Source of the DNA: Trebonia kvetii
GTDB taxonomy: Bacteria > Actinomycetota > Actinomycetes > Streptosporangiales > Streptosporangiaceae
Length of the DNA: 64,000 nt
NCBI RefSeq assembly: GCF_007827045.1
Contig: NZ_RPFW01000003.1
Location: forward strand, 248,001-312,000
Direction: 5' to 3'
Position numbers and translations under genes: made by a program. How positions within the stretch are numbered: the first letter of the stretch is position 1; the number at the start of each line of letters is the position of its first letter. Below the pieces are notes generated by a model. The model saw only the letters and a list, made by a program, of their open reading frames with translations. It searched no databases and was not told where the DNA came from. Below, in pieces: positions 12,721 through 14,538 of the stretch.

Positions 12721-13107
12721 ATGAGCGAGGCCGCAGCAACCTCATCGTTGGACAACCGCGCGCTGGAACCGCTGTGGCGGGAGGTGCTTGGGCGCCGCCT
12801 GCGCGCGCTGCGCACCGAACGCTGGGAGACGCTCGCACAGACAGCGGAACGGGCCGGAATCTCGCCCCAGTACCTGTCGGAGATCGAGCGTGGCCGCAAG
12901 GAGCCGTCGAGCGAGATGATCGCCGCGCTGGCCGGCGCGCTCGGCATCACGGTCGCAGACCTGATGACCGGCGCCGCGGCGGATCTCCGCCACGACGCCG
13001 GCATCGTCGCGCTCGCCACCGTCGCGACGGCGCGCACCGCACAGCTGACGCGCGCCGCGCGGGCCGCGTACCCGGCTGGCCCGGTCGCCCTCGCCATGGC
13101 GGCCTGA
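12721..13107 (+). CDS. XRE-family regulator, PopR/ClgR-like
   Basis: A 128-residue DNA-binding protein. Residues ~19-75 form a Cro/C1-type helix-turn-helix (TLAQTAERAGISPQYLSEIERG) ending in EPSSEMIAALAGALGI, the pattern seen in ClgR and PopR, activators of clp genes in actinobacteria. The C-terminus ends in Ala-Ala, and Ala-Ala endings are the known ClpP-dependent degron of PopR in Streptomyces. It faces the two clpP genes across an 8-base gap, a context matching a popR-clpP locus although the genes converge here. Likely role: activate the clpP pair and be removed by the housekeeping ClpP. The family is clear; the PopR equivalence and degron are inferred from context and the last residues. 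Confidence 0.85.
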   Translation: MSEAAATSSLDNRALEPLWREVLGRRLRALRTERWETLAQTAERAGISPQYLSEIERGRKEPSSEMIAALAGALGITVADLMTGAAADLRHDAGIVALATVATARTAQLTRAARAAYPAGPVALAMAA

Positions 13108-13115
13108 CCCGCCGG

Positions 13116-13706
13116 TCAGTCGCGGCCGGTCAGAATCTGGTCCACCAGGCCGTACTCCAGTGCCGCCTGCGCCGTGAAGATGCGGTCCCTGTCGGTGTCG
13201 GCGCGCAGCGTCTGCACGGTCTGGCCGGTGTGCTCGGAAAGCACCGTCTCGAGCTGTGCCCGCAGCCGGACAAGCTCGTCGGCCTGGAGGATCAGGTCGG
13301 GGATGGTGCCCTGGCCGCTCACCGCCGGCTGGTGCAGGATGACCCTGGCGTGCGGCAGCATGGCCCGGCGGCCGACGGCGCCCGCCGCGAGCAGCACCGC
13401 GCCCGCGGCGACCGCCTGGCCGACGCAGGTCGTCACCACCGGCGCCTTGATGTATCGCATGGTGTCGTAGATGGCCAGCATGGACGGGATGTCGCCGCCC
13501 TCGCAGTTGATGTACAGGTTGATCTCCTGGTCCGGGCTCTGTCCCTCAAGGAAGATCAGCTGCGCGGTGAGCGTGTTGGCGACACCGGGATCGATCACCG
13601 TGCCCAGTACGATGATCCGCTCGGTAAGCAGGTGCGAGTAGACGTCCATGATCCGGTCGCCGCGCGCGTGCTCGGCGACGACGTTGGGGATGGGGTAGGC
13701 GCTCAT
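13116..13706 (-). CDS. ClpP-like subunit lacking the catalytic serine
   Basis: A 196-residue ClpP-fold protein of normal length. The handle region and triad positions His125 (RVILHQP) and Asp174 (TDRDRIF) are kept, but the nucleophile motif that normally reads GQAASMG reads GQAVAAG, so Ala100 replaces the serine. The codon is GCC on clean surrounding sequence. It overlaps the catalytic clpP upstream by four bases and is translated after it, so a mixed ClpP barrel with one silent ring or subunit is likely, comparable to the inactive ClpR subunits of other organisms. It should bind, gate or shape the barrel instead of cutting peptide bonds. Loss of function through a point mutation is the alternative, but the rest is well conserved. 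Confidence 0.9.
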   Translation of the reverse strand: MSAYPIPNVVAEHARGDRIMDVYSHLLTERIIVLGTVIDPGVANTLTAQLIFLEGQSPDQEINLYINCEGGDIPSMLAIYDTMRYIKAPVVTTCVGQAVAAGAVLLAAGAVGRRAMLPHARVILHQPAVSGQGTIPDLILQADELVRLRAQLETVLSEHTGQTVQTLRADTDRDRIFTAQAALEYGLVDQILTGRD

Positions 13707-14437
13707 GCCGCACCGCCCGCGGTGCGCGCCGGGCCGGCGCTGTCGGCGGCGGGCCCGCCGCCGGCTGGCCCGTCCGTGGCAGGCGGCCCGCCGTCGGCGG
13801 GCGCGGTCCCCGCGGGCGCGGGCGCCCGGTACGGCCGCAGGCCGAACGGGCGCCGCCCGGCCGGAAGCAGCTGTGCGAACGTCGAGGCGATCTGGTCGAT
13901 GAAGCCGTACTCGCGCGCCTCGGCCGAGGTGTACCAGTGGTCATGCCGCGAGTCCTCGAAGACCCGGTCCATCGGCTGGCCGGTGTCCTCGGCGATCAGC
14001 CCGAGCACCGTATCCCTGGTCTGCCGCAGGTCAGCTGCCTGCAGTTCGACCTCGACGGCGGAGCCGCCGATGCCCGCGGAACCCTGGTGCATGAGGATGC
14101 GCGAGTGCGGCAGCGCGTACCGCTTGCCCCTGGTGCCCGCCGACAGCAGGAACTGGCCGGCGCTGCACGCGATGCCGAGCGCGAGCGTTGACACGTCGCA
14201 CGGGATGAGCCGCATGACGTCGCGGATGGCGAGCATCGACGGCACGGAGCCGCCAGGTGAGTTGATCCACAGGGCGATGTCGCTGTTCGGGTCCTCCTCG
14301 GCAAGCGTGATCATGTGTGTGGCGAGGACCGTGCCGTTGTCGTCGTCGAGCACCCCGTCGAGTACGAGCACCCGGCGCGGCAGCAGTGAGAGCCTGAGCT
14401 GTTCGGTGAAGACCGGAGTCTTGGATTCTGAAGCCAT
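13703..14437 (-). CDS. clpP: ATP-dependent Clp protease proteolytic subunit ClpP (catalytic)
   Basis: A 244-residue ClpP peptidase that forms barrels with AAA+ unfoldases such as ClpX or ClpC to degrade proteins. The triad is intact: Ser92 in GIACSAGQFLL, His117 in RILMHQG and Asp166. Residues ~200-244 are a Pro/Ala/Gly-rich tail not usual in ClpP, which may cover the barrel face. The ATG at 14437 starts the normal MASESKTP... N-terminus; the frame extends upstream but that part is low-complexity and overlaps the amidase gene. The downstream serine-less ClpP overlaps by four bases, so the two subunits are co-translated. Together with the PopR-like gene this matches the stress-induced second clpP operon of streptomycetes. 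Confidence 0.92.
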   Translation of the reverse strand: MASESKTPVFTEQLRLSLLPRRVLVLDGVLDDDNGTVLATHMITLAEEDPNSDIALWINSPGGSVPSMLAIRDVMRLIPCDVSTLALGIACSAGQFLLSAGTRGKRYALPHSRILMHQGSAGIGGSAVEVELQAADLRQTRDTVLGLIAEDTGQPMDRVFEDSRHDHWYTSAEAREYGFIDQIASTFAQLLPAGRRPFGLRPYRAPAPAGTAPADGGPPATDGPAGGGPAADSAGPARTAGGAA

Positions 14438-14538
14438 GACTTCAGCCTGCGCGACGAGCGCGGCAAAGAGGGCCCGCCGCTGCCGTCGGCAGATCCGCCG
14501 CAAGCAGCGAGCGCCCAGCCCGCAGCCGGAGCCGACGG

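Follow-up and report, generated by a model that had tools for sequence, protein, structure and literature searches.

Why does the actinobacterial two-subunit Clp peptidase retain two kinds of cutting site although one of them is dispensable? In the Streptomyces ClpP1P2 core, a Ser to Ala change in ClpP2 leaves full activity and a change of the ClpP1 Ser abolishes it, and the ATPases dock through the ClpP2 pocket alone, as probed by S94, Y96 and Y116 (PMC9765437). In M. tuberculosis, likewise, ClpP2 activity is not essential (PMC9067928). A locus of Trebonia kvetii carries that same Ser to Ala experiment as a natural one, repeated in its relatives and in the same subunit every time. The locus lies in a 64,000-nt stretch of contig NZ_RPFW01000003.1 (the window; all positions below are window positions), from a fragmented genome of 9.25 Mb that is 97% complete with 8.2% contamination.

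A coupled clpP pair with one incomplete catalytic triad

The locus consists of two clpP genes, a regulatory gene and a putative operator:

13703..14437, minus strand: clpP3-type gene for the catalytic subunit (Ser92/His117/Asp166), whose C-terminal tail is rich in Pro, Ala and Gly
13116..13706, minus strand: clpP4-type gene for a ClpP2-like subunit, in which Ala replaces Ser at residue 100 and both His125 and Asp174 are kept
within 13116..13706, minus strand: Asn63/Tyr65/Tyr85, the docking-pocket positions of the window ClpP4
13407..13409, minus strand: codon GCC, which puts Ala100 where the catalytic Ser would stand (sequence and alignment)
13703..13706, minus strand: ATGA overlap of both clpP genes, translational coupling (sequence)
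12721..13107, plus strand: PopR/ClgR-like XRE activator (HTH_31/HTH_3) of 128 aa, C-terminus AMAA (Ala-Ala degron type)
14479..14508, minus strand: candidate tandem PopR-type operator, GCTGCTTGCGGCGGATCTGCCGACGGCAGC, located 41 bp ahead of the start codon of clpP3

Both ClpPs match Pfam CLP_protease strongly (4e-65 and 9e-51). Their genes overlap by 4 bp, a spacing found in 94 of 132 loci, and 8 bp separate the stop codons of clpP4 and the convergent XRE gene. The window ClpP3 has the complete triad of an active peptidase, Ser92-His117-Asp166, and that of the window ClpP4 is incomplete (Ala100-His125-Asp174): the second protein reads CVGQAVAAGAVLL, with Ala100 filling the catalytic Ser column. 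The alignment is ungapped at this column, which rules out an alignment error as the source of Ala100. The first-pass annotation had described this arrangement correctly, from the triad of the first ClpP to the four-base overlap, the missing Ser beside a present His and Asp, and the convergent protein ending in Ala-Ala (...ALAMAA).

A canonical ClpP1P2 pair with an adjoining ClpX is encoded elsewhere in the same genome, on another contig. The nearest solved relatives of the window ClpP3 are mycobacterial ClpP1 proteins, and the AlphaFold2 monomer model of the window ClpP4 is nearest to M. tuberculosis ClpP1P2 chains, the two models being of moderate quality (pLDDT 77 and 73). Residues 196-244 of the window ClpP3 (13706-13852, minus strand) form a low-confidence Pro/Ala/Gly-rich tail, with which the protein reaches 244 aa; its relatives in the Ala clade are mostly of 200-220 aa. 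A search of the 64-kb window against Rfam gave no matches.

The locus has the anatomy of the Streptomyces PopR module

The arrangement matches the Streptomyces clpP3-clpP4/PopR module, as had been proposed from the Ala-Ala end. In both, a ClpP1-like and a ClpP2-like gene form, in the order clpP3, clpP4, a bicistronic operon that is additional to clpP1P2, adjoins a convergent XRE activator of the ClgR family that ends in Ala-Ala, and is preceded by a tandem TCTGCC-N3-GGCAGA operator. Plasmid p1 of Streptomyces fungicidicus carries such a clpP3-clpP4 pair with a convergent regulator ending in CLAA and the operator TCTGCCCGTGGCGAATCTGCCACGGGCAGA. The window ClpP4 is 58% identical to a Streptomyces-like copy (G057). 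The comparison with Streptomyces brought out a further likeness, since the triad of the Streptomyces ClpP4 is broken as well, by a different route: the S. fungicidicus protein keeps Ser and reads RVLLGQP at the catalytic His place (His to Gly), whereas the window ClpP4 has Ala for Ser and keeps His and Asp. The f20 genomes, taken as Streptomycetaceae, also carry the His to Gly form.

This fits a remark of d'Andrea et al. 2022 on Nocardia asteroides and S. coelicolor, and also on Leptospira interrogans, in each of which one clpP allele is without predicted key residues; in the accessible part of that paper the remark takes up one sentence and a supplementary figure, with no PopR link, loss count or partner comparison (PMC9067928).

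The window regulator scores 67.6 bits against the NCBIfam ClgR-family model, below the 170-bit cut-off, and is 53% identical over the HTH to the regulator in the same position in S. fungicidicus. An Ala-Ala end is found in 161 of 169 distinct convergent regulators (LAA in 138), compared with 8 of 345 among the remaining long ORFs in these loci, 7 of 206 among ClpP3-type and 21 of 209 among ClpP4-type proteins.

The putative operator, which the first-pass annotation did not include, consists of two 15-bp palindromes in tandem and departs at 4 of 24 positions from the PopR site in the literature, TCTGCC-3N-GGCGAATCTGCC-3N-GGCAGA (review PMC9775585). It is the best tandem site of this type in the window, and shuffled windows reach only 6 or 7 mismatches. 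Its core, GGCGGATCTGCCGACGGCAG, has a single exact match in the whole genome; because the pattern was derived from this very site, only the uniqueness of the match is informative. Scanning the window for the 15-base palindrome alone was not significant (5 found against 4.9 expected, with 2 mismatches), so that what makes the operator credible is its 30-base tandem form, its position before the operon and its conservation across relatives, and these only. TCTGCC-N3-GGCAGA, with up to 2 mismatches and up to 200 bp upstream, precedes 90 of 115 operons, compared with 1.4 expected by shuffling. The best PopR-type sites of several housekeeping clpP pairs have 4-5 mismatches only. In four loci of family f19 (L238, L240, L245 and L247), an intact ClpP1P2-like pair has an upstream PopR-type site with 0-1 mismatches and no adjoining regulator ending in -AA.

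In Streptomyces, ClpX and ClpP1P2 degrade PopR, and ClpP3P4 is seen in the absence of ClpP1P2 (PMC9765437, PMC12607617). By homology with Streptomyces we therefore read the circuit as a backup switch, which would be turned on when ClpP1P2 fails. "Self-limiting", the word first used for the activator, suits it less well, PopR being degraded by the housekeeping core; a self-limiting loop would need PopR to be degraded by ClpP3P4, of which we found no evidence.

The Ala state is old and under selection

Had close relatives carried Ser, Ala100 could have been dismissed as a recent mutation. A scan of 84,980 species genomes returned 80 close loci with 68-86% identity, of which 75 have Ala and 5 Ser at the catalytic column, and the Ala is common to Nocardia, Streptosporangiaceae, Actinomadura and Pseudofrankia. 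Its presence in isolate genomes of many genera rules out a recent mutation or an assembly error; the state is old and conserved. Since the Ala column is common to orthologues of many genera, and the Ala-Ala end to nearly all of the regulators counted above, neither feature of the window is due to chance.

The silent subunit has a dN/dS of 0.00-0.17 in nine species pairs of the Ala clade (one genome being used twice), lower than that of its cutting partner in all nine, and reading frames are intact in all matches. From the dN/dS result we conclude that the silent subunit is a functional protein and not a relic. With few exceptions, the Ala/Gly members retain His and Asp, whose role there may be structural. 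Residues 67-71 of the window ClpP4, NCEGG, have Cys-Glu in place of the usual Ser-Pro before the oxyanion Gly-Gly; this motif is conserved in the Ala clade, with NCEGG in 104 of 105 members and NCAGG in the remaining one.

The five Ser-bearing members, four from Kribbella (L079, L083, L094 and L095) and one from Nocardia jejuensis (L043), all use the codon TCG. That of N. jejuensis, one base from GCG, looks regained from Ala, as judged by its well-supported place inside the Ala-bearing Nocardia; for Kribbella the tree accommodates a kept and a regained Ser alike. Ser can thus be tolerated or regained in the Ala clade. No regulator lies in the flank retrieved for the Kribbella loci, and the N. 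jejuensis operator is decayed (4 mismatches).

ClpP4-type subunits lost the triad repeatedly and their partners never

The first-pass annotation had treated the missing Ser as a local feature. It proved to be one case of a recurrent loss, to which the Streptomyces His to Gly form also belongs. Searches in genomes of the same class widened the sample to 234 loci. The ClpP4-type triad is broken in 171 of 215 loci (some genomes being counted twice), the ClpP3-type partner is SHD in 230 of 230, and none of the 19 housekeeping-like pairs of the outgroup has a broken triad. The 122 genomes from the genome searches comprise 85 broken and 37 intact cases, in a sample enriched for relatives of the window, so that these figures are not a class-wide rate. 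The states seen, in the order Ser-His-Asp, are AHD, GHD, SGD, SHN, SHH, SHS, EHH, EHN, WHT, WHD, AQD, SDD, SGE and GHE: Ser is replaced by Ala, Gly, Glu or Trp, His by Gly, Asp or Gln, and Asp by Asn, His, Ser or Thr.

The three triad columns were left out of the alignment behind a maximum-likelihood tree of 117 ClpP4/ClpP2-type proteins. On this tree the triad must have switched 8 times between the intact and the broken state, and well-supported branches leave no alternative for at least 6 of these switches; the tree of the ClpP3-type partners calls for 9, although such counts alone cannot separate loss from gain. On our reading of the trees, an Asp-loss clade (with a later Ser to Glu change), the Streptomyces His to Gly form, the Ala/Gly clade of the window and a second Ser-loss clade with Gly, Ala or Trp would be separate events, as would the single cases L033 (Asp to Ser) and L229 (His to Asp).

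Glu or Trp stands for the catalytic Ser in L172, L195, L203, L207 and L210 and in L227, L228, L230 and L234; being charged or bulky, these residues would occupy the active site and not just leave it vacant. An Asp to Asn change is not proof of inactivity, as Listeria ClpP1 illustrates (cited in PMC9765437), and by analogy with it some of the Asn forms of ClpP4 may still be active in a mixed complex.

Docking was probably given up by ClpP3 before cutting was given up by ClpP4

By sequence and by model similarity, the ClpP4-type subunit is the ClpP2-like one, that is, the counterpart of the subunit that docks the ATPases in Streptomyces. With pocket equivalence set by motif position and not from structure, the Y96 position is occupied by Tyr in every ClpP4-type sequence and the Y116 position by Tyr, Phe or His, and the partners of broken ClpP4s have degenerate pockets, mostly with Ala/Ser, Trp/Tyr and Leu at the three positions. 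The amino terminus IPNV...RGER is present in ClpP4 and missing in ClpP3. Three loci beside the Ala clade (L138, L219 and L224) combine an intact ClpP4 with a partner pocket that is already degenerate, which suggests, at the level of sequence, that the loss of docking by ClpP3 probably preceded the loss of cutting by ClpP4.

The housekeeping ClpP1P2 of mycobacteria and Streptomyces is likewise a two-subunit core that can do without the Ser of ClpP2 and in which the ATPases dock on ClpP2 (PMC9765437, PMC9067928). It differs in that ClpP1 and ClpP2 both have the full triad: the asymmetry is functional there and is written in the sequence here.

A proposed backup core with divided labour

We read the locus as a PopR-controlled backup Clp core with divided labour, in which ClpP3 would cut and ClpP4 would dock the unfoldase, and we put the probability of this reading at about 0.75. 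As carried over from the Streptomyces system, the Ala-Ala tail would mark the activator for destruction by ClpX and the housekeeping ClpP1P2; when ClpP1P2 fails or is overloaded, the activator would accumulate, bind the tandem TCTGCC-N3-GGCAGA and turn on the operon. The gene order and the overlap provide for coupled synthesis, after which both subunits would assemble into a mixed barrel. All of its cutting sites would come from ClpP3, and ClpP4 would retain its axial N-terminus and the pocket in which ClpX/ClpC dock, and cut nothing. We propose that the ClpP4-type triad was lost repeatedly and in different ways because cutting is not needed from this subunit, Ser to Ala being the form of loss fixed in the lineage of the window. 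The barrel with one silent ring proposed at the outset holds up in part: the pair has the look of a core of two subunit types, one of them silent, and the ring and its assembly are predictions. ClpI was considered as a special unfoldase partner and set aside, there being no reported conserved link to clpP.

That the same subunit lost its site about six times, and its partner never, suggests that one half of the barrel mainly docks the unfolding motor. A wider claim, for and against which we find the odds even, is that of a convergent one-sided machine, in which the active site of the ATPase-docking ClpP4 would have been lost on about six occasions, by way of each residue of the triad, after ClpP3 gave up docking, leaving one cutting and one silent docking ring. 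Three points count against the backup core with divided labour: His and Asp are retained beyond what a dead site needs, some of the Asp to Asn forms may still be active, and Ser occurs within the Ala clade, in Kribbella and N. jejuensis.

A nucleophile-free subunit would reduce activity on mixing, and the Ala subunit might be a regulatory or dominant-negative one that joins ClpP1 or ClpP2 in the housekeeping core and changes or weakens the activity of that core. Extra subunits can mix with housekeeping ones, as does the S. hawaiiensis ClpP-ADEP, which interacts with ClpP1 and ClpP2 (PMC12607617), but the Ala subunit always adjoins its own catalytic partner and is usually translationally coupled to it, and a mere inhibitor would not need a partner so strictly conserved as SHD; we consider this role unlikely. 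About as unlikely is a mixing of both subunits within each heptamer, which would give two rings with fewer sites and no silent ring. Cyanobacterial ClpP3/ClpR and plastid ClpP/R mix their subunits in this way. The mycobacterial ClpP1P2, however, to which the nearest solved relatives belong and which the ClpP1/ClpP2-like window pair resembles, is made of one homoheptamer of each subunit, according to Akopian 2012. ClpR is also a ClpP paralogue without catalytic residues that partners an active ClpP, and the window ClpP4 resembles it in the loss of the triad. As judged by similarity, the two are probably not of the same clade and would have arisen independently; in the tree of 117 ClpP4/ClpP2-type proteins the window ClpP4 is placed among actinobacterial ClpP4-type sequences.

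The conservation of Cys68 in the Ala clade, together with the kept His125 and Asp174, could point to a subunit that still cuts through another nucleophile. This is highly improbable: Cys68 lies in the strand before the oxyanion loop, away from the Ser place, the other Ser-less lineages (the Gly, Trp and Glu forms) have no such Cys, and the Ser-bearing Kribbella and N. jejuensis do. Least probable of all is a reading of the Ala gene as a relic in decay or as an error of assembly. The variety of broken states does resemble relaxed selection on catalysis, and the genome is fragmented and partly contaminated, but the dN/dS is lower than that of the partner, the frames are intact, the docking Tyr is invariant and isolate genomes have the same state.

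Scope of the silent subunit and distribution of the module

Prior work has touched on the fact of an incomplete allele, and what stands out here is the repeated silencing of the same subunit beside an always-intact partner. In the literature searched, which took in few subscription papers, we found no account of the extent of the loss, of its link to PopR or of its one-sidedness. These loci provide a large natural set of asymmetric cores, on which the specialisation of the rings, the polarity of docking and the selectivity of inhibitors could be tested. Inhibitors of the Clp active site would be expected to strike one subunit only; the Streptomyces ClpP3P4 is ADEP-insensitive (PMC12607617).

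The PopR backup circuit, studied in Streptomyces, reaches Nocardia, Streptosporangiaceae and others, operator and degron included. The module is found on plasmid-classified or second replicons of S. fungicidicus, Embleya and Tsukamurella tyrosinosolvens (L251, L252 and L253), and members from Micrococcaceae and Cellulomonadaceae are placed within the Ala clade, both of which suggest its horizontal transfer.
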